64,000 nt of DNA. Source: a bacterium (GTDB taxonomy: Bacteria; Deinococcota; Deinococci; Deinococcales; Deinococcaceae). Shown piece after piece: positions 1,482-23,436 of the stretch (position 1 is its first letter; each line of letters begins with the position of its first letter). Made by a program: the position numbers and the translations under genes. The notes under the pieces were generated by a model, which was given only the letters and a program-made list of their open reading frames with translations, had not been told where the DNA came from and searched no databases. Where the stretch lies: assembly GCA_021810505.1 (NCBI GenBank), contig JAJZIR010000001.1, positions 372,001 to 436,000 of the forward strand, read 5' to 3'.

Positions 1482-2549
1482 GTGCCCGCCCGCCTGGCCC
1501 ATGTCTCCCTGGAGCGGTTGCGCCGCAACCTGGTCAAACTCAGGCGGTTAGCTGGGCAGGTGAGAGTGTTGCTCCCGGTCAAGGCCGATGCCTACGGCCA
1601 CGGGGCGCGCCGGGTAGCCGCGGAGCTCTCGGACCTGCCCTGGATCTGGGGCTTCGGGGTCGCCAGCGCGCCGGAAGCGGCGGAGCTGCTCGCGGTCAGC
1701 GACAAGCCGGTCTTGATCTTCACCCCGCTGGAGCCAGGAGAAGTTGGGATCCTGCGCAGCGGCCAGGTGCGGGCGACGGTCAGCGCGGTCCAGGAACTAG
1801 AGCAGTTGCCCGAGGGGACGCCGGTCCACCTCGAGATCAACACCGGGCTCAACCGGTTGGGGGCACGTCCAGCCGAGCTCCCAGCGCTGTTGGAGGCTTG
1901 CCGGGGGCGTTTCCCAGTCGAAGCCGTCTTCTCCCACTTCGCCAGCGCCGACCGAGCTGACCTGCGCGACGCCACCCGGCAGCGCTGGGAGTTCGAGCGA
2001 GCCACCGCCGGGCTCCCGGTCTTGCGCCACCTCAGCAGCTCCCACGGCGTCTTGGCTTTCGGAGCGGCGGCCGCCTTCGACCTGATCCGGCCGGGCATCG
2101 CCGCCTACGGCTACAGCAGCTACGACCACGGGCGGCAGCTCAGCCTGGAGCCGGCCCTGCGCCTAGAGGCCAGGATCGGCTACCTGCACTGGGTAGAGCC
2201 CGGCGAGGCGGTCTCCTACGGAGGCGTCTGGCAGGCCGAACGGCCTACTTTGGTAGCGACGGTCCAAATCGGCTACGCCGACGGCTATCCCAGGAGCGGC
2301 CAGGGCCAGCAGGTCTGGGTCGGTGGAGAGCGGAGGCCGGTGCTGGGTCGGGTCTGCATGGACCAGCTGATGGTGGACGTCACCGGACTGGGAGTTCGGG
2401 TGGGCGACTTCGTCGAGCTAGCTGGAGACCACATCCGGCTCAGCGAGCTCGAAGCCTGGAGCGGGCGGATCCACTACGAGCTGCTCTGCGGCCTGGGTGC
2501 TCGGGTGGAACGGGTCTACGAGCCGGGGCCGCGCGAGAAGCGGGCGTAA
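1482..2549 (+). CDS. alr: Alanine racemase
   Basis: PLP enzyme interconverting L- and D-alanine, giving D-Ala for peptidoglycan. 355 residues, normal length. Seen: PLP lysine in VKADAYGHG (about K34), catalytic tyrosine in AVSYGGVW (about Y246), and the conserved CMDQLMVDVTG segment. GTG start chosen because a -10-like TAAACT lies 6 nt before it and the homology begins at once (RLAHVSLERLRRNL). It converges on trpD, and the two coding 3' ends overlap by 34 nt. Functionally linked to the mur genes and alanine dehydrogenase near 50-56 kb. Confidence 0.95.
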   Translation: MPARLAHVSLERLRRNLVKLRRLAGQVRVLLPVKADAYGHGARRVAAELSDLPWIWGFGVASAPEAAELLAVSDKPVLIFTPLEPGEVGILRSGQVRATVSAVQELEQLPEGTPVHLEINTGLNRLGARPAELPALLEACRGRFPVEAVFSHFASADRADLRDATRQRWEFERATAGLPVLRHLSSSHGVLAFGAAAAFDLIRPGIAAYGYSSYDHGRQLSLEPALRLEARIGYLHWVEPGEAVSYGGVWQAERPTLVATVQIGYADGYPRSGQGQQVWVGGERRPVLGRVCMDQLMVDVTGLGVRVGDFVELAGDHIRLSELEAWSGRIHYELLCGLGARVERVYEPGPREKRA

Positions 2550-3529
2550 GCCTCCAGCAGCTCCAGCGCCTTCCCTGAGCGCAGGACTTCCAGGGCTAAA
2601 GCGACCCCCGAGGGCAGGTCGGGGGTCAAGGCAGCGAGGTAGATGGCCGCACCGGCGTTGAGGGCGACCACGTCCCGCTGGGCAGGGGTTCCCCGCCCAG
2701 CGAGGACCGCCCGGAGCAGCGCGGCGTTCTCGGAGGCGTCCCCCCCGACCAGGGCCGAACGGTCGTACGTCCCCACCCCGAACTGCTCCGGGGACAGCTC
2801 CGAGCTGCGCAGCTCCGAGCTGCGCAGCTCGGCGACCAGGTTAGGGCCGCAGACGGTCAACTCGTCCATCCCCGACCCGTGCACCACCAGAGCTGCCCGG
2901 GCACCCAGCAGCTGCAGGACCCGCGCGACCGGCATGGTCCACTCCGGGGCGAAGACCCCGAGCAGCTGGGTCCTCGGAAAGGCCGGGTTGGTGAGCGGCC
3001 CCAGCAAGTTGAAGACGGTGCGGGTGGCTAGGTCCGCGCGGATCGGCGCGGCGTAGCGCATGGCCGGGTGAAAGCTGCGGGCAAACAGAAAGCCGATCCC
3101 CAGGCTCTGGATCGCCGCAGCCACTCGGTCCGGTCCCAGGTCGATGTCGACCCCCAGAGCTTCTAGGACATCGGCGCTGCCGGAGCGGGAGCTAGCGGCG
3201 CGGTTGCCGTGTTTGGCCACCTTGACGCCGGCGGCGGCGGCGACGAAGGCGGCTGTGGTCGAGATATTGAAGGTGTGCGCACCGTCCCCGCCGGTTCCGC
3301 AAGTATCCAGGGTTTCCAGGTCGCTAGGTAGGTCCAAGCGGACCGAGACTTCGCGCATGGCCCGCGCGAAGCCAGCGATCTCCTCGGGGGTCTCGCCGCG
3401 CACCCGCAGGGCTGCCAGAGCCGCGGCCAGCCGCACCGGGCTCACATCCCCACGCATCACCTCGCGCATGAAATGGCTGGCCTGCTCCTGGTCTAGGCGG
3501 CTTCCGGCCATCAGCTGAGCGTGGATCAT
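2516..3529 (-). CDS. trpD: Anthranilate phosphoribosyltransferase
   Basis: Second step of tryptophan synthesis: joins anthranilate to PRPP. 337 residues with the ATG at 3529, which overlaps the trpG stop (ATGA); a longer open frame upstream runs inside trpG and was rejected. Seen: PRPP and anthranilate loops in DTCGTGGDGAHTFNISTT and VKVAKHGNRAASSRSGSADVLE. Oddity: near 2800-2835 a short tandem duplication gives ELRSSELRSSEL. Last gene of the trpEGD unit; other trp genes (trpB, A, C, F) are not in the window. Confidence 0.95.
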   Translation of the reverse strand: MIHAQLMAGSRLDQEQASHFMREVMRGDVSPVRLAAALAALRVRGETPEEIAGFARAMREVSVRLDLPSDLETLDTCGTGGDGAHTFNISTTAAFVAAAAGVKVAKHGNRAASSRSGSADVLEALGVDIDLGPDRVAAAIQSLGIGFLFARSFHPAMRYAAPIRADLATRTVFNLLGPLTNPAFPRTQLLGVFAPEWTMPVARVLQLLGARAALVVHGSGMDELTVCGPNLVAELRSSELRSSELSPEQFGVGTYDRSALVGGDASENAALLRAVLAGRGTPAQRDVVALNAGAAIYLAALTPDLPSGVALALEVLRSGKALELLEAYARFSRGPGS

Positions 3530-4107
3530 CGCTGCTCCAAGAAGTTGGCCAGCAGTTCCATCCCGCACTCGGTAGCGATGCTCTCGGGATGGAACTGCAC
3601 CCCCTCGATGGGAAAGAACCGGTGGCGCAGGCCCATCAACACCGCGCTCCCATCGCTCTCGGTCGCCCACGCGGTCGGGATCAGGTCAGCTGGGAGGTCT
3701 TCTACCACCAGCGAATGGTAGCGCGTCGCCACCAGATCCTGGGGCAGGCCGGTGTAGACACCCTTGCCGTCGTGATGGATCTGCGAGGTCTTGCCGTGCA
3801 GCAGGTGCGCGGCCCGGACCACTCTGGCGCCGAAGGCCTGGCCGATGGCCTGGTGGCCCAGACACACCCCCAAGATGGGCAGCTGGCTGCCGTAGCGGCG
3901 GACCAGGTCCAAGCACTGCCCAGCCTGGTCCGGTGTGCAGGGACCAGGAGAGAGCACCACCCGGTGGGGGGCTAGCTGCGCCACCTCCTCCAAGGAAAAG
4001 CGGTCATTTCTCCAGACCTCTACCTCCGCTCCCAGGGTTCCCAGGTACTGCACCAGGTTATAGGTGAAGCTGTCGTAATTGTCGACCACCAAAACCCGCT
4101 CGCTCAC
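3526..4107 (-). CDS. trpG: Anthranilate synthase component II (glutamine amidotransferase)
   Basis: Releases ammonia from glutamine for TrpE. 193 residues. Seen: VVDNYDSFTYNLVQYLG start, nucleophile Cys in LGVCLGHQAIG, and the His/Glu of the triad in QFHPESIAT. GTG start overlaps the trpE stop by 4 nt (GTGA), and its own stop overlaps the trpD start. The sequence could also serve folate synthesis as PabA, but its place between trpE and trpD assigns it to tryptophan. Confidence 0.94.
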   Translation of the reverse strand: MSERVLVVDNYDSFTYNLVQYLGTLGAEVEVWRNDRFSLEEVAQLAPHRVVLSPGPCTPDQAGQCLDLVRRYGSQLPILGVCLGHQAIGQAFGARVVRAAHLLHGKTSQIHHDGKGVYTGLPQDLVATRYHSLVVEDLPADLIPTAWATESDGSAVLMGLRHRFFPIEGVQFHPESIATECGMELLANFLEQR

Positions 4108-5510
4108 AGGCCCTCCTCGGCTCGCGCTACCGCCCGGATCAGCGCCGCCGCCTTGTTCAGAGATTCCTGGTACTCGGTGGGCGGATCGCTGTCGGCGACC
4201 AGACCCGCCCCAGCCTGGATGTGAACTTCCCCCCCGGTGATCACCAGGGTGCGCAGGGTCAGGGCCATCTCCATGCTGCCGTCCTGGGCGATGTAGCCGA
4301 AGCTACCGCCGTAAGCGCCCCTGCGGCTGGGCTCGATCTCGCAGAGAATCTCCATGGCGCGCACCTTGGGAGCGCCGGATACCGTCCCCATCGGCATCAG
4401 GCTGGCTAGAGCGTCCAGCGGGCTCCGGCCAGGTGCCAGCTGACCGGTCACCGAGGAGACCAAGTGCATGACGTGGCTGTAGCGCTCCACTGAAAAGGCC
4501 TCATCGACCCGAATGCTGCCGTAGCGGCATACCCTCCCCAAGTCGTTGCGGCCCAGGTCGACCAGCATCAAGTGCTCCGCGCGCTCCTTGGGATCGCCCA
4601 TCAATTCCCGCTCCAGGGCCAGGTCCTCTTCCGGGGTCGCTCCCCGAGGACGGGTGCCGGCGATCGGCCGGGTGGTCACCCAGGTTCCGTCCGAGCGGCA
4701 GAGGCTCTCCGGGCTGCTCGCCACCAGGGTCACGCCGGCTGGACCCCCGAAGTTGAGGTAGCCCATGTGGGGGCTAGGGTTGATCTGGCGGAGCGCCCGG
4801 TAGATGGCGAAGGGGTGGGCGCGCAGGGGGGCGCTGAAGCGCTGGCTGGGTACCACCTGGAAAACGTCCCCGGCCCGGATGTACTCCAGGGAGCGGCGGA
4901 CCGCCGACTCGAAGTCGGACCGGCTGAAGTTGCTGGTGAACTCGCTGCGAGGGCTGGGGCGGCTCCCGGGTACCTCGGGGAGGGGTCGTCCCAGCAGCGA
5001 AGCCAGCTGATCTAGGTGGCTGCGGGCCTGCTGCTCCCCCCCTGGATCGGCGGGACAGACCAGGAACAGCCGGTGGCGGAGGTGGTCGAAGATCGCCAGG
5101 GCAGCCGGCTCGAAAAATTCCAGGTCAGGCAGGTCCAGGGGATCTGGCTGCAGGTCTGGAAGGCGCTCGTAGGAGCGAATCAGGTCGTAGGCGGTATAAC
5201 CCACCGCACCGCCTACGAAGGCCGGCAGGCCGTCCGGGATAGGAGCCCCCCGCCGGACCGCCTGGTAAAGCAAGCCCAGAGGGTCGGCTACCTCTGCGGA
5301 GCCCTGGCCCAGCGATCCGGAGCGCCAGACCCTTCCCCGCTTGGCCACCAGACCGCCGCGGCGGCCGACGCCGATGAAGGAGTAGCGGGCGTGGCGCTCG
5401 CCCCCTTCGACCGACTCCAAGAGAAAGCTGTAGGGCTCGCCCTCGGTCAGCTTGAGATAAGCCGTCACCGGGGTTTCGAGATCCGCAAAGCGTTCCAGAT
5501 AGACGTACAT
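4104..5510 (-). CDS. trpE: Anthranilate synthase component I
   Basis: Makes anthranilate from chorismate with ammonia from TrpG; feedback-inhibited by Trp in the family. 468 residues from the ATG at 5510 (MYVYLERFADLETPVTAYL). The frame stays open another 49 codons upstream, but that stretch contains the attenuator hairpin, so 5510 is preferred. Seen: the chorismate-binding signature region with IAGTRPRG, DLGRNDLGRV, GTVSGAPKVRAMEI and IQAGAGLVADSDP. First gene of the overlapping trpEGD operon; divergent from the M42 peptidase. Confidence 0.95.
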   Translation of the reverse strand: MYVYLERFADLETPVTAYLKLTEGEPYSFLLESVEGGERHARYSFIGVGRRGGLVAKRGRVWRSGSLGQGSAEVADPLGLLYQAVRRGAPIPDGLPAFVGGAVGYTAYDLIRSYERLPDLQPDPLDLPDLEFFEPAALAIFDHLRHRLFLVCPADPGGEQQARSHLDQLASLLGRPLPEVPGSRPSPRSEFTSNFSRSDFESAVRRSLEYIRAGDVFQVVPSQRFSAPLRAHPFAIYRALRQINPSPHMGYLNFGGPAGVTLVASSPESLCRSDGTWVTTRPIAGTRPRGATPEEDLALERELMGDPKERAEHLMLVDLGRNDLGRVCRYGSIRVDEAFSVERYSHVMHLVSSVTGQLAPGRSPLDALASLMPMGTVSGAPKVRAMEILCEIEPSRRGAYGGSFGYIAQDGSMEMALTLRTLVITGGEVHIQAGAGLVADSDPPTEYQESLNKAAALIRAVARAEEGL

Positions 5511-5523
5511 GCAGCCCCCATAC

Positions 5524-5586
5524 AAAATCCCCGGGGCACTCTGCCCCGGGGAAGCCAAGCCAAGACGACCCAGGGAGCTATCCCTT
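5524..5586 (-). promoter_or_regulatory. trp attenuator (regions 1-4, terminator)
   Basis: Minus-strand leader RNA between the WW leader peptide and trpE. Region 1 AGGGA (5585-5581) pairs with region 2 TCCCT (5576-5572). Region 2 CCCTGGG (5575-5569) can instead pair over 7 bp, one G-U, with CCCGGGG inside region 3. Region 3 CCCCGGGGCA (5551-5542) pairs perfectly with region 4 TGCCCCGGGG (5538-5529) over 10 bp, followed by ATTTTG. These are the mutually exclusive pairings of a classical ribosome-controlled attenuator. The pairings are seen; the function is inferred. Confidence 0.7.
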
Positions 5587-5616
5587 AGGCCACCAGGCGC
5601 CGAACCCGAAATCCAC
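5578..5616 (-). CDS. trpL: trp leader peptide with tandem Trp codons
   Basis: A 12-codon ORF, GTG to TAG, reading MDFGFGAWWPKG. The two adjacent TGG codons (5595-5590) lie just before attenuator region 1, and the stop codon is in the loop of hairpin 1:2. A ribosome stalled on the Trp codons would cover region 1 and free region 2 to form the antiterminator. A ribosome at the stop codon would cover region 2 and let the 3:4 terminator form. The start codon has no clear ribosome-binding site, which is the weak point; the ORF is in a different frame from trpE. Confidence 0.65.
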   Translation of the reverse strand: MDFGFGAWWPKG

Positions 5617-5653
5617 GGGGCCATCAGAGCACGGCCGGCCAGCCAGTTGGAAT

Positions 5654-5669
5654 ACACGTCTAGACATGT
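5654..5669. promoter_or_regulatory. Operator-like near-palindrome between trpE and M42 peptidase
   Basis: ACACGTCTAGACATGT, symmetric except for one position per arm, centred in the 203-nt divergent intergenic region (5511-5713). A second dyad follows at 5670-5693 (7-bp arms CTCTGCG/CGCAGAG). Either could be a repressor site or part of the trp leader 5' end. No protein can be assigned. Confidence 0.35.
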
Positions 5670-5713
5670 CTCTGCGGGCTACTCCGCGCAGAGGGGTGTC
5701 ATACTTGGCTGAG

Positions 5714-6817
5714 ATGCTACCTATTCGCGATCAGCTGCTGGCCACCCTCAAGCGCCTGGTCGACCTCAGCGGTCCCAGCGGTTCCGAGCAGAGCGTGCTC
5801 CGGGAAGTGCTCGCGCTGGTCCGGCCGCTGGCCGATACGGTCGAGGTCGATTCTCTGGGCAACCTGGTGGCCACCCGCCGCGCTGCGGACCCAGGTGCGC
5901 GGCGCTGCTTGCTGGCCGCACACCTGGATGAAGTCGGTTTCCAGGTGCGCTCCATCTCGGAAGACGGGCTGCTGCGCTTCGAGAAGCTGGGCGGCTTCGA
6001 CGACCGCGTCCTGCTGGCCCAGCGGGTTTGGGTGCAGCCAGAGGGCGGGGAGCGGCTACTCGGCGTAATCGGCTGCCCCAGCGCCCACCACCGCTTATCG
6101 CCCGGCCACCTCTTCGCGGCCCACGAGCTCGCCATCGATGTGGGCGCGAGGGACGCGGACCACGCCGAGTCGATGGGGATCCGGCCCGGAGACCCCGCCG
6201 GCCTGGTGGGGGAGCTCACCGAGCTGGGAGCGGGGAGCGGGCGCTACACCGGACACGCCCTGGATGACCGGGCCGGCTGCGCAGCCCTGCTCTGCCTGCT
6301 GGAGCAGTACCGGGACACCCCTCCGCCGGCCACCATCCTGGCGCTGTTCACGGTGCAGGAAGAAGTCGGGTTGCGGGGAGCCCAGGCGGCCAGCCGAGCG
6401 CTGCGAGCCGAGGTGGCTCTAGCGCTCGACATGACCGCGGCCGATGACCTGCCGATGGCGCCCGGGGAAACCAGTCTCCGCCTGGGGAGCGGCCCGGCCA
6501 TCAAGTATTTCGACGCCTCCACGCTCCCCCACCCGGCTGTCCGCAAGGGGCTGCGGCGCGCTGCCGAGCGGATCCAGCTCAGCAGCCAAGCCGAGGCGTT
6601 GGGAGGCATCGGCACCGACGCGGGCGCCCTGCAGTGGACCGGAGCGGCCTGCCCGAGTGGAGCGGTCTCGGTGGCCAATCGCTACACCCACAGCCCCGCC
6701 GAGGTCTTAGACCTCGGCGATCTGGTCGGAATGGTCCAGCTGCTCAGGGCCTTTCTCGAGGACCTTCCGGCCCTCGACCTGCGCTTCCTCGGCGAGAGCC
6801 ATGCGGCAGCGGGATAA
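5714..6817 (+). CDS. M42 family metallo-aminopeptidase
   Basis: Cytoplasmic dinuclear metal aminopeptidase of the M42 (glutamyl/deblocking aminopeptidase, TET-forming) family. 367 residues from ATG 5714; an ATG 16 codons upstream was rejected because family homology starts at LLATLKRLVDLSGPSGSE. Seen metal and catalytic residues: H and D in AAHLDEVGF, D in LDDRAGCAAL, the Glu pair in VQEEVGLRGA, D in ALDMTAADD, and H in YTHSPAEV. CATACT lies 8 nt before the start and may be the -10 box. Exact peptide specificity cannot be read. Confidence 0.9.
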   Translation: MLPIRDQLLATLKRLVDLSGPSGSEQSVLREVLALVRPLADTVEVDSLGNLVATRRAADPGARRCLLAAHLDEVGFQVRSISEDGLLRFEKLGGFDDRVLLAQRVWVQPEGGERLLGVIGCPSAHHRLSPGHLFAAHELAIDVGARDADHAESMGIRPGDPAGLVGELTELGAGSGRYTGHALDDRAGCAALLCLLEQYRDTPPPATILALFTVQEEVGLRGAQAASRALRAEVALALDMTAADDLPMAPGETSLRLGSGPAIKYFDASTLPHPAVRKGLRRAAERIQLSSQAEALGGIGTDAGALQWTGAACPSGAVSVANRYTHSPAEVLDLGDLVGMVQLLRAFLEDLPALDLRFLGESHAAAG

Positions 6818-19494: not shown

Positions 19495-20505
19495 TCAGCC
19501 CAGGGTGCTGCGGCGCTCCACCAGCTCCGGCTCGAAGCGCACGCTCCTAGCCGGCCCCACCAGGCCATCTAAGCGCTCCAAGAGGAGCTGCGCCGCTGTC
19601 TGCCCGAGCAGTTCCACCGGTTGGTGGACGGTGGTGAGGCCTTGGGCTGAGGCCCAGGGCTGGTCATCAAAGCCGATCACCCGGATGTCTCGCCCGACCC
19701 GCCAGCCTTGGCGCTCGGCCTCTTCGAGGACCGGGACAGCCAATAGGTCGGCGGCTGCAAAGACGGTGCAGGGCCGGCCGGCTTCGCGGAACAGCCGCTC
19801 AGCGGCCTGCTGACCACCCCGGTAGTGCAGGGCGCAGAGGTAGTTGGCGGTGATCCGTTTCCCGGCTTCCGCCAGGCCGTCGCCGAGGCCGCGCATGCGG
19901 TCCTGGAAGATCCGGTTGACGAACAGGCCTTCGGGGTCATCTTCCAGAGATAGGACGTAGAGCTCCCCCGGGTACTTGGCCGCCGCGCGGCCGGCCAGGA
20001 GTCCGCCCAAGTAGTTATCCACGTAGGCGCAGTCGTAGCGGTCGCTGTAGCCGTCGACCAGAACTACCGGGCATTCGGTCGGGAGCCGCCCCCCCTCGAA
20101 CAGCGAAGCCAGGTCGTAGGTCACCATGATCACCCCGTCAGCCTGGTAGGCCAAGCGGTTGCTGGAGAGGTAGCGCTCCAACCTGGCCCTCCCCAGCAAC
20201 GGAAAGAGCGCGCTGTCGTATCGCTGCGCGCTGAGGGTCTCCTCCATCGCGGTGAGCAGCCGGGTGTAGAACTCGGCCTCGACCATCGGGAGCATGATGC
20301 TGACCGTGTAGGAGCGGCCCCCAGCGATCCTCCGGGCATGGGGGTTGGGTTGGTACCCCAGGGCCTCGATGACGGCGAGCACCCGGGAGCGGGTATCTGG
20401 GTGCACTGCGGGGTGGTTGTTGAGGACCCGCGAGACGGTGCCGACTCCTACCTGGGCAGCCCTAGCCACGTCGCTGATGGTGGTGCTAGGCAAGATTACC
20501 CTCAC
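19495..20505 (-). CDS. LacI/GalR-family transcriptional regulator
   Basis: Sugar-type repressor or activator, DNA-binding dimer. 336 residues. Seen: N-terminal helix-turn-helix TISDVARAAQVGVGTVSRVLNN with the hinge HPDTRSRVLAVIEALGYQPN, then a periplasmic-binding-protein-like effector domain (FAAADLLAVPVLEEAERQG, VIGFDDQPWA). The GTG start lies inside the end of valS (20-nt overlap); TTG 20493 is an alternative with GAGGG in front. No sugar genes are nearby, so the effector is unknown. Confidence 0.9.
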   Translation of the reverse strand: MRVILPSTTISDVARAAQVGVGTVSRVLNNHPAVHPDTRSRVLAVIEALGYQPNPHARRIAGGRSYTVSIMLPMVEAEFYTRLLTAMEETLSAQRYDSALFPLLGRARLERYLSSNRLAYQADGVIMVTYDLASLFEGGRLPTECPVVLVDGYSDRYDCAYVDNYLGGLLAGRAAAKYPGELYVLSLEDDPEGLFVNRIFQDRMRGLGDGLAEAGKRITANYLCALHYRGGQQAAERLFREAGRPCTVFAAADLLAVPVLEEAERQGWRVGRDIRVIGFDDQPWASAQGLTTVHQPVELLGQTAAQLLLERLDGLVGPARSVRFEPELVERRSTLG

Positions 20506-23185
20506 CCAACTCGCTCAGCAGGGCGCGCAGGCGCTGGTCCTGGGCCGAGAGGTCCTCGAGGCGAGCGCGCTCCTCGGCGACCCGCTGGCTGGGCGCCTTA
20601 TCCAAGAAGTCGGGGCTGGAGAGGCGTTGCTGGCTGGTCCGCAACTGGGCCTGCAGTTGGGACAGGCGGCGGCGCTGCTTCTCGGCCCAGGCCCCGAGGT
20701 CCACCTGACCGCGCAGCGGCGCCCGAAGCGTGAATCCAGAGACCACCTGCGCCAGGCTCGGACCGGGAGCGCCCACCTCCACCTCGGCCCGGGCTAGGCC
20801 TTCGAGCAGGGTGACCGGCCAAGCTCCCAGCTCGCCCTCGAGGTGCAAGCTGAGCCGGTCGCCTGGAGCCAGCCCCAGCTCCGAGCGCAAGTTCCGGGCT
20901 GCAGCCACCACGGCCTGAAGCTGGGTAAAGAGTTCGCTCGCCCCGGAGACAGCCAGTTGACTGGGCCAAGGGGCCTGGGCCACGTCGGTGCCGAACAGTG
21001 CCTCAGACAACTCGGCGGTCAGGAAGGGCATGACCGGGTGCAACAGCCGGAGCAGGCGTTCCAGAACGTAGAGCAAGACGGTCGCCCGGGCGGGGAGAAG
21101 CGGGGTCAGCTTGACCACCTCGACGTACCAGTCGCAGAAATCCTCCCAAACCAAGCGGTACAGCAGCTGCGCTACCTTCGCCAGGTCCAGCGCAGCGTAG
21201 CCAGCGTCCAGCTCAGCCACCGCCGAGGAGAGGCGCTCGAGAACCCAGCGGTCCGCCAGCTCCAGCTCCAGCCCCTCCAGAGCTTGCTCGGGGATAGAGC
21301 TGGGGCGCCCCAGCTCTATCCCCACCCGCCAAGCCGCCAGCGCCGGAGGCAGCGGGGTCGCGTCCGCGAGCTCCTCCAGCTTGCGCAAGGCGAAGCGGGA
21401 GACATTCCAGACCTTATTCGCGAAGTGCTGCCCCTGCTCGAAACGTCTGGGGTCATGGCGGATATCCTGGCCACCAGTGGCCAAGGCCACTAGCGCAAAG
21501 CGGGTGGCATCCGCGCCGTAGCTGTCCAGCAGGTCGAGGGGATCGATGCCGTTGCGCTTGCTCTTGCTCATCTTCTGGCCATTGCGGTCCAGGTATAGGC
21601 CGTGTAGCAAGACCCTGGGGAAGGGTGAGGAGCCGGTCAGGCCGTAGCCAGCCATCTGCATCCGCGCCACCCAGAAGAAGAGGATGTCATACCCGGTCAC
21701 CAGCAGGGCGTTAGGGTAGAAGCGGGCGAAGTCTTGCGAAGGGTCCGGCCAACCCAGGGTGCTCATCGGCCAGAGATTAGAGCTGAACCAGGTATCGAAG
21801 ACATCCGGATCCTGAACTAACGCCACCCCGGCCAGCTCGGGGAGTTCGGGAGGATCGGTCTCCCAACGGTCCATGGGCGGAACGTGGACCGTCCCGTCCG
21901 GCGCGTACCAGGCCGGAATCCGGTGCCCCCACCAGAGCTGTCTGGAGATATTCCAATCGCGCAGAGAGGTCAGCCAATCGCGGTCGACCTTCAGCCAGCG
22001 CTCCGGGACGAAAGTCATATCGCCTCGGTCTAGACCCCCCAGGACCAACTGGGCCAGCGGTTCGGTGCGCACGAACCACTGGGTGGACAGGAGGGGTTCC
22101 ACCACTACGCCGGTGCGCTCGGAGACCGCCAGGGCCGCGCGGTGAGGCCTAGTTTCCTGCAGGAGACCAGCCGCCCCCAGGGCTTCCACTACCCTGGAGC
22201 GCGCTTCAAAGCGGTCGAGCCCGCGCAGGAATCCCGGCACCAGCTCCGAGCACATCCTGCCCTCCAGGTCGATCACCGAAGGGTGCCCCAAACCGTGATC
22301 CCGGCCGATCTCGTAATCGGTGGGATCGTGGGCTGGGGTGATCTTGAGCGCCCCTACGCCGAAGTCAGGATCTACCCGGGGATCGGAGAGGATCGGAATC
22401 CAGCGATCGGTCAGCGGAATCTTGGCCGAGCGCCCGATCAGGTGCGCGAAGCGAGGGTCTCTCGGATGGACCGCGATGGCCTGATCGGCGAAAATGGTCT
22501 CCGGGCGGACGGTCGCCACCAGGATTTCGCCCGCCCCGCCATTGCTGAGCGGCAGGGTGGGATCCTCCAGGAGGTAGCGGAGCAGGTACATCTGGCCGCT
22601 GCGCTCCTCGCGCTCGACCTCCAGGTCAGACAAGGTGGTCTGAGCCTTGGGGTCCCAATTCACCATGCGCTCGCCCCGGTAGATCAGGCCGCGGTGGTAG
22701 AGCGCGACGAATTGGTAGCGCACTGCCCGGGAGAGGCCGGAGTCCAGGGTGAAGCGCTCGCGGCTCCAGTCACAGGAGAGGCCCAGCCGGCGCAGCTGCA
22801 GGGAGATACGGCCACCGGAGCGCGCCCTCCAGTCCCAGACCCGCTCCAGAAAGGCTTCTCTTCCCAGCTGGTGCCGGCTTACCCCTTCAGCAGCCAATTC
22901 CCGCTCCACCACCACCTGGGTGCTGATCCCGGCGTGATCGGTCCCGGGCAGGTAGAGGACCTCGCAGCCAGCCATCCGCCGCTGGCGGGCCAGCACATCG
23001 ATGATAGTATTGTCCAGAGCGTGCCCCAGGTGCAGATCCCCAGTCACGTTGGGGGGAGGCATGACCACAGCAAAGGGTTCCTTGGGACTGGTCGGATCGG
23101 CCCGGAAAGCCACCCCACCCCAGCGAGCCACCCATTTGGGCTCGACGAGCTTCGGATCGAACGCTTTGGCGAGTTCCACCAGCAC
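20486..23185 (-). CDS. valS: Valyl-tRNA synthetase
   Basis: Charges tRNA-Val. 899 residues, class I. Seen: HIGH-type motif HLGHALDNTI (about 52), KMSKS motif in GQKMSKSKRNGIDP, an editing (CP1) domain with VATVRPETIFADQA, an anticodon-binding domain, and a C-terminal coiled coil rich in Gln/Arg (KQRRRLSQLQAQL...). GTG start at 23185 is preceded by AGGAG. Controlled by the T-box leader upstream; the lacI-type gene overlaps its 3' end. Confidence 0.98.
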   Translation of the reverse strand: MLVELAKAFDPKLVEPKWVARWGGVAFRADPTSPKEPFAVVMPPPNVTGDLHLGHALDNTIIDVLARQRRMAGCEVLYLPGTDHAGISTQVVVERELAAEGVSRHQLGREAFLERVWDWRARSGGRISLQLRRLGLSCDWSRERFTLDSGLSRAVRYQFVALYHRGLIYRGERMVNWDPKAQTTLSDLEVEREERSGQMYLLRYLLEDPTLPLSNGGAGEILVATVRPETIFADQAIAVHPRDPRFAHLIGRSAKIPLTDRWIPILSDPRVDPDFGVGALKITPAHDPTDYEIGRDHGLGHPSVIDLEGRMCSELVPGFLRGLDRFEARSRVVEALGAAGLLQETRPHRAALAVSERTGVVVEPLLSTQWFVRTEPLAQLVLGGLDRGDMTFVPERWLKVDRDWLTSLRDWNISRQLWWGHRIPAWYAPDGTVHVPPMDRWETDPPELPELAGVALVQDPDVFDTWFSSNLWPMSTLGWPDPSQDFARFYPNALLVTGYDILFFWVARMQMAGYGLTGSSPFPRVLLHGLYLDRNGQKMSKSKRNGIDPLDLLDSYGADATRFALVALATGGQDIRHDPRRFEQGQHFANKVWNVSRFALRKLEELADATPLPPALAAWRVGIELGRPSSIPEQALEGLELELADRWVLERLSSAVAELDAGYAALDLAKVAQLLYRLVWEDFCDWYVEVVKLTPLLPARATVLLYVLERLLRLLHPVMPFLTAELSEALFGTDVAQAPWPSQLAVSGASELFTQLQAVVAAARNLRSELGLAPGDRLSLHLEGELGAWPVTLLEGLARAEVEVGAPGPSLAQVVSGFTLRAPLRGQVDLGAWAEKQRRRLSQLQAQLRTSQQRLSSPDFLDKAPSQRVAEERARLEDLSAQDQRLRALLSELGEGNLA

Positions 23186-23189
23186 CTCC

Positions 23190-23436
23190 TGATCTGGGCG
23201 AACAACAAAAAACCGCCCCTTGGGGAGCGGGCGAAAGATCCTTCCGCGGTACCACCGCTCTTCCCCGGCCGAAACCAGGGCACTTTGTAGGCAGTTCTAC
23301 TGAGCAGCCAGGCGGCTGCCGTTCCCCTGCGGGCTCACGGGCGACCTTCACACCGCCCCTGCCGACCCCTTCGCAGCTTCCGGGATCTCTCTTTGGGCAG
23401 GTAAGCGGCGCTACTCCTCCCGGTCGGCGCCCGCCC
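23190..23436 (-). promoter_or_regulatory. T-box leader for valS
   Basis: Transcriptional riboswitch sensing uncharged tRNA-Val. The conserved T-box antiterminator GGTGGTACCGCGGAAG lies at 23241-23256 on the minus strand. Its UGGU bulge can pair with the ACCA end of a tRNA. It is followed by a terminator hairpin (23213-23230) and six T. Upstream are the AGAGAGA and GGAAGCTGCGA stretches expected in stem I. The specifier codon is not certain; GTG and GTC both occur near 23349-23362 in the plausible specifier loop. Confidence 0.88.
23207..23230 (-). terminator. Intrinsic terminator of the valS T-box
   Basis: CCGCTCC/GGGGCGG stem (one G-U) with a 4-nt loop followed by TTTTTT on the minus strand. 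It competes with the T-box antiterminator. Confidence 0.85.

Follow-up and report, generated by a model that had tools for sequence, protein, structure and literature searches.

In this study, we analyzed a DNA stretch of 64,000 nucleotides, referred to here as the window, and found that its trpEGD genes are very probably controlled by a classical ribosome-mediated trp attenuator, the leader open reading frame (ORF) of which is probably leaderless. The attenuator region extends from 5616 to 5524 on the minus strand, directly upstream of trpE. The mechanism itself is ordinary and already known. The value of the finding is in the lineage, in the conservation across the order, in the apparently leaderless start and in the apparent replacement of the element in the sister family f2. 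The decisive evidence for the attenuator reading was obtained from relatives, that is, from the conservation and covariation of the element among them. The features of the locus are listed in Table 1.

Table 1. Positions of the attenuator and of the downstream genes in the window
Feature	Position	Strand	Basis or remark
Candidate -10 box TCTGAT, weak	5623..5628	-	6 nt upstream of leader GTG, as TAnnnT boxes in relatives
trpL-like leader ORF	5578..5616	-	GTG start, 12 codons, MDFGFGAWWPKG*; read from sequence
Leader start codon GTG	5616-5614	-	Read from sequence
Segment 1, 5' arm of 1:2 hairpin, includes Trp codons	5581..5598	-	Minimum free energy (MFE) fold of transcript from GTG
Tandem Trp codons TGGTGG (control codons)	5595-5590	-	Read from sequence
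Leader stop TAG	5580-5578	-	Directly abuts segment 2
Segment 2, antiterminator 5' arm CTCCCTGGG	5569..5577	-	Directly 3' of stop codon
3' arm of 1:2 hairpin	5559..5576	-	MFE fold; comparable 1:2 hairpins in relatives
Segment 3, TCCCCGGGGCA = (T)CCCCGGGGCA	5542..5552	-	Common to antiterminator and terminator
Terminator loop GAG	5541-5539	-	Read from sequence
Segment 4, terminator 3' arm TGCCCCGGGGA = TGCCCCGGGG(A)	5528..5538	-	Pairs with segment 3
Terminator U tract TTTT, then GT	5524..5527	-	Read from sequence
trpE, anthranilate synthase component I	4104..5510	-	TIGR00564, 521.6 bits, above cut-off; ATG 5510
trpG, glutamine amidotransferase component	3526..4107	-	TIGR00566, above cut-off
trpD, anthranilate phosphoribosyltransferase	2516..3535	-	TIGR01245, above cut-off; start approximate

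A preliminary description of this DNA had reported a 12-codon ORF with two adjacent Trp codons, and this ORF was found on the minus strand exactly where it had been placed. It reads GTG GAT TTC GGG TTC GGC GCC TGG TGG CCT AAG GGA TAG. The two Trp codons come in frame seven codons after the leader start, at a distance equal to that in most genomes of the genus g6, and 11-12 nt lie between the last Trp codon and segment 2. The stop codon is followed in order by CTCCCTGGG, a 16-nt spacer, TCCCCGGGGCA-GAG-TGCCCCGGGGA, TTTT, 13 nt and the ATG of trpE. The three genes downstream had been named trpEGD, and the family models confirmed these names (Table 1).

The hairpins of the region largely agreed with those described earlier, and some of their dimensions had to be corrected. 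The 1:2 pairing AGGGA/TCCCT is present; it is the tip of a longer hairpin spanning about 5598-5559. The 3:4 hairpin with its T run also exists, and its stem, described as 10 bp, is 11 bp long when the closing T-A pair is counted. The TTTT lies before trpE, as described, and the ATG begins 13 nt further on. The 2:3 antiterminator was found as described. The 3:4 hairpin is the sole terminator-like site within 500 bp, where 0.2 would be expected by chance.

We then folded the transcript beginning at the GTG. It forms the 1:2 hairpin and the 11-bp 3:4 terminator with -49.8 kcal/mol (z = -2.7). The energy of the 3:4 hairpin was -23.7 kcal/mol and that of the 2:3 duplex of the window was -15.6 kcal/mol. 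When folding was constrained by a ribosome at the stop codon, the probability of 3:4 was 0.94. For a ribosome at the Trp codons, with segment 4 absent, the probability of 2:3 was 0.72. Both the layout of the segments and this constrained folding bear out the earlier statement that the pairings exclude one another. At equilibrium, 3:4 prevailed (P = 0.94) even if the ribosome was at the Trp codons, indicating that the switch must be kinetic, with 2:3 forming first. In established attenuators the switch is kinetic, and the antiterminator forms before the terminator.

We infer from the sequence that the element responds to Trp by ribosome stalling, as follows. Transcription would begin at the GTG or close by, and the 5' end of the RNA would be loaded directly with a ribosome. 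If charged tRNA-Trp runs short, the ribosome would wait on the two Trp codons and mask segment 1; 2:3 would then pair before segment 4 is made, the terminator would not form, and trpEGD would be transcribed. With abundant Trp, the ribosome would reach the UAG that abuts segment 2 and mask this segment, 3:4 would pair, and transcription would stop near 5524, within the U tract that ends 13 nt before trpE. If no ribosome were present, 1:2 and 3:4 would form and transcription would stop as well.

The preliminary description had proposed an alignment of the trpE upstream regions of related genomes. Using TrpE as the query, we searched 61 genomes from the window's own family and order, followed by 111 genomes of the phylum, and trpE upstream regions were recovered from five families (f1-f5). 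A search for related loci among named genomes gave matches from distant phyla only and none from close relatives. In f1, f3, f4 and f5, 39 genomes including the window were read in detail, and the leader was checked in five further genomes from three additional f4 genera, giving 44 with the window. An ORF with Trp codons was found upstream of trpE in all 44. WW or WWW occurred in 43 of the 44 (38 of the 39 read in detail), the remaining genome, G003, having a single W. A hairpin terminator followed by T's lies between the leader and trpE in 39/39 of the genomes read in detail. The genomes of the genus g6, which look like Thermus, carry the same element. Sato and colleagues reportedly described, in 1988, an "attenuator-like structure" before trpE of Thermus thermophilus HB8, in that one species only.

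The paired segments also co-vary among relatives. The partners of the antiterminator are CTCCCTGGG/CCCCGGGG in the window, CTCTGGGT/ACCCAGAG in G002, ACCTGGG/CCCCAGGT in G019 and CGGG/CCCG in G007. We evaluated this by swapping partners among 11 genera; the native 2:3 total was matched by 7 of 10000 permutations and the native 3:4 total by 0 of 10000, where the genera are treated as independent, which they are not, and swaps among the many f3 and f4 genomes that have the palindromic CCCCGGGG core are uninformative. The swaps weakened both the 2:3 and the 3:4 helices, meaning that the partners have changed together between genera. Against shuffled sequences, the 2:3 folding energy of the window was mildly better (z -1.4), and that of several f3 relatives was no better. 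In G001, the 2:3 duplex was poor when taken downstream of the stop codon because segment 2 of this genome sits within the ORF. Taken together, the tandem Trp codons, the antiterminator with its covariation and the terminator are conserved in relatives, which supports the view, already expressed in the preliminary description, that trpEGD is probably under trp attenuation of the classical type.

It might be considered that the region contains only an intrinsic terminator or another 5' UTR feature, and that the WW mini-ORF is an untranslated chance frame. The GTG without a ribosome-binding site and the poor promoter of the window agree with such an explanation. In order to estimate the effect of chance, we shuffled the region in 5000 trials. 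A WW mini-ORF by itself appeared in 119 of the 5000 shuffles, which also agrees with a chance frame, but a WW mini-ORF together with a terminator appeared in just 4 of the 5000. In addition, the Trp-codon ORF and its short spacing to the stop codon, segment 2 and the terminator are kept in four families, contrary to what a chance frame would predict. We therefore think that this explanation is very unlikely.

The lack of a ribosome-binding site at the GTG had been regarded as a weak point of the attenuator reading. The relatives offer an explanation. In 31 of the 39 genomes, the best -10-like hexamer precedes the leader start by 6 or 7 nt, and a TAnnnT box precedes it in 31 of the 39; these counts lean toward a leaderless result, as the start with the best -10 was picked where several in-frame starts existed. 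For most g6 and g16 genomes, a single in-frame ATG or GTG was available for the leader. An SD-like motif preceded the leader start in only 1/39 genomes, and with a permissive motif list such a motif was found between the terminator and trpE in 39/39. The combination of a -10-like box at a distance of 6-7 nt and a missing Shine-Dalgarno sequence, recurring across relatives, is the signature of a leaderless mRNA. Thus, the leader ORF is probably leaderless, its RNA starting at or near the start codon, and this property across the order would account for the GTG without a ribosome-binding site. In the window itself, the TCTGAT box does not have A at position 2, and no consensus sigma-70-like promoter was found in the leader region.

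We also considered whether trpE begins further upstream, in which case the region would be coding. A 517-codon frame is indeed open from the GTG at 5657. However, alignments with relatives of TrpE begin only at residue 3-8 of the protein with the N-terminus MYVYLERF, the frame in question differs from the WW frame, and relatives have a conserved leader in the same region. These results leave next to no probability for an upstream start.

Another explanation is that the leader is real but acts in a different mode, namely through a Trp-binding protein or through translational coupling to trpE, and not through the choice of hairpins by the ribosome position. Coupling effects are conceivable over the 13 nt from the terminator end to trpE. 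Also, according to a published proposal, gene-proximal leader ORFs enhance translation through reinitiation; the distance peak on which this proposal is based is seen in the Deinococcus-Thermus group (PMC4833913). However, the window's genome (2.3 Mb, 97.85% complete) gave no match to TrpR (PF01371) or TRAP (PF02081), so that control of trpE by either was rejected, and the conserved 2:3/3:4 alternatives with the U tract fit transcription termination. Moreover, a long distance separates the leader from trpE in family f5 and in G003, which argues against coupling as the common function. We accordingly regard a different mode of action as highly improbable, and ribosome-mediated attenuation as the preferred reading.

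T-box control of trpE was rejected as well, since the only T-box-like matches of the genome are at other loci. One is a T-box-like leader in the window at 23224-23436 (-), with 75.7 bits, below the Rfam gathering score of 93; it precedes a gene at 20486-23185 (-) that, judged by its sequence, apparently encodes valyl-tRNA synthetase. The second is a weak match of 31.4 bits (G000:C8:248810-248948 (-), locus L143).

Comparing the element with the trp attenuator of E. coli (trpL-trpE; RF00513), the short leader ORF, its tandem Trp codons within segment 1, the 1:2, 2:3 and 3:4 alternatives and the terminator before trpE are alike. In contrast to E. coli, the leader of the window is probably leaderless, segment 2 begins right after the stop codon, TrpR was not found in the genome, and only trpEGD lies downstream. 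The trpBA genes are on another contig, and no recognizable leader of the WW attenuator type was found upstream of them; a single TGGTGG before trpB, examined as a possible second leader, falls inside a long open frame and not in a short leader. The Rfam model RF00513 (Trp_leader) gave no match in the window at the gathering score, and none in 5450-5700 at E up to 5; six relatives gave none either when E was relaxed to 1.

The preliminary description referred to the mechanism as classical in enterobacteria. This is correct, but the scope is too narrow, as the mechanism has been published in Actinobacteria and Rhizobiales too. The trpLE(G) attenuator of Sinorhizobium meliloti has a 14-codon trpL, its RNA starts at the trpL ATG, and attenuation occurs without repression of transcription (PMC7298713). 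The window, for which a start of the RNA at the leader start codon is predicted, belongs to a different phylum, and its trpE and trpG are separate genes. The actinobacterial attenuators of Corynebacterium and Streptomyces have two or three UGG codons, a GC-rich terminator, poly-U and alternative hairpins with the common complementary core gGCC-rGCy-GGCC (PMC1262725). The window likewise has tandem UGG codons, a terminator with U's and a complementary core in its alternative hairpins, but the core in much of its order is of the CCCCGGGG type. Leaderless attenuator ORFs have been noted in mycobacteria (Canestrari et al. 2020, as cited in PMC13236596).

We found no description of this element in the Deinococcus/Thermus group in the titles, abstracts and passages of the literature searched. 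A published survey suggests that amino acid attenuators may be of gamma-proteobacterial origin with few transfers (PMC3766115). In view of the conservation found across this order of the Deinococcus/Thermus group, trp attenuation would be far more widespread and would have escaped notice because it is not matched by the Rfam model, and the view of the survey looks too narrow. The apparent leaderless start also raises the question of how ribosome and polymerase are coupled in thermophiles on an RNA without a 5' leader.

The exception in the order is family f2, which is presumably Truepera-like. None of the f2 genomes read has a WW attenuator with a terminator upstream of trpE. Instead, an R-W-R frame (once R-W-L) is present upstream of trpE in 22 f2 genomes, and about twelve of these share a block near SWTG(A/V)LGRWR (among them loci L092, L094, L097, L105, L110, L118, L122, L130, L145 and L146), with a diverged version, SWLEPRRWRR, at L093. 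Synonymous positions vary in the block, indicating that the peptide itself is conserved. The first collection of f2 sites had been selected by CGATGG, and a second pattern, which left the Arg codon free, yielded 12 sites before trpE in f2, every one of them with CGA, plus 5 sites in other families that use other Arg codons and appear to be unrelated. A stricter pattern was found in 10 of the 111 genomes, once each and only before trpE, and its reversed control gave 0. TATACT often lies 6-7 nt before the ATG of the f2 leader ORFs, which have no Shine-Dalgarno sequence, and no convincing terminator was found downstream of the leader. The f2 genomes of g27, two of g15, g18, g28 and g20 are without the SWTG-type leader, and in several such genomes trpE closely follows the upstream gene.

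We tentatively consider, with rather less than even confidence, that one order has two forms of trpE leader, namely leaderless WW(W) with a terminator in four families and, in f2, a leaderless SWTG(A/V)LGRWR leader that has an invariant CGA-TGG and lacks an intrinsic terminator. The f2 form may then be an unrecognized Trp-sensing leader, acting through Rho or through an arresting nascent peptide, which was derived from the classical attenuator or replaced it. This f2 leader may be a newer finding than the attenuator of the window.

Two further observations were made around these loci. A divergent gene of the M42-type aminopeptidase kind (5666-6817, +) borders the same short intergenic region as the trp leader, and about 8 nt before its likely ATG near 5714 there is a CATACT box, which suggests that this gene too may be leaderless. 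In family f5 and genus g3 (L085, L086, L088, L089 and L090), CTCGAG is very common around trpE, inside and beside the leader region, and is possibly a palindrome repeated throughout these genomes.
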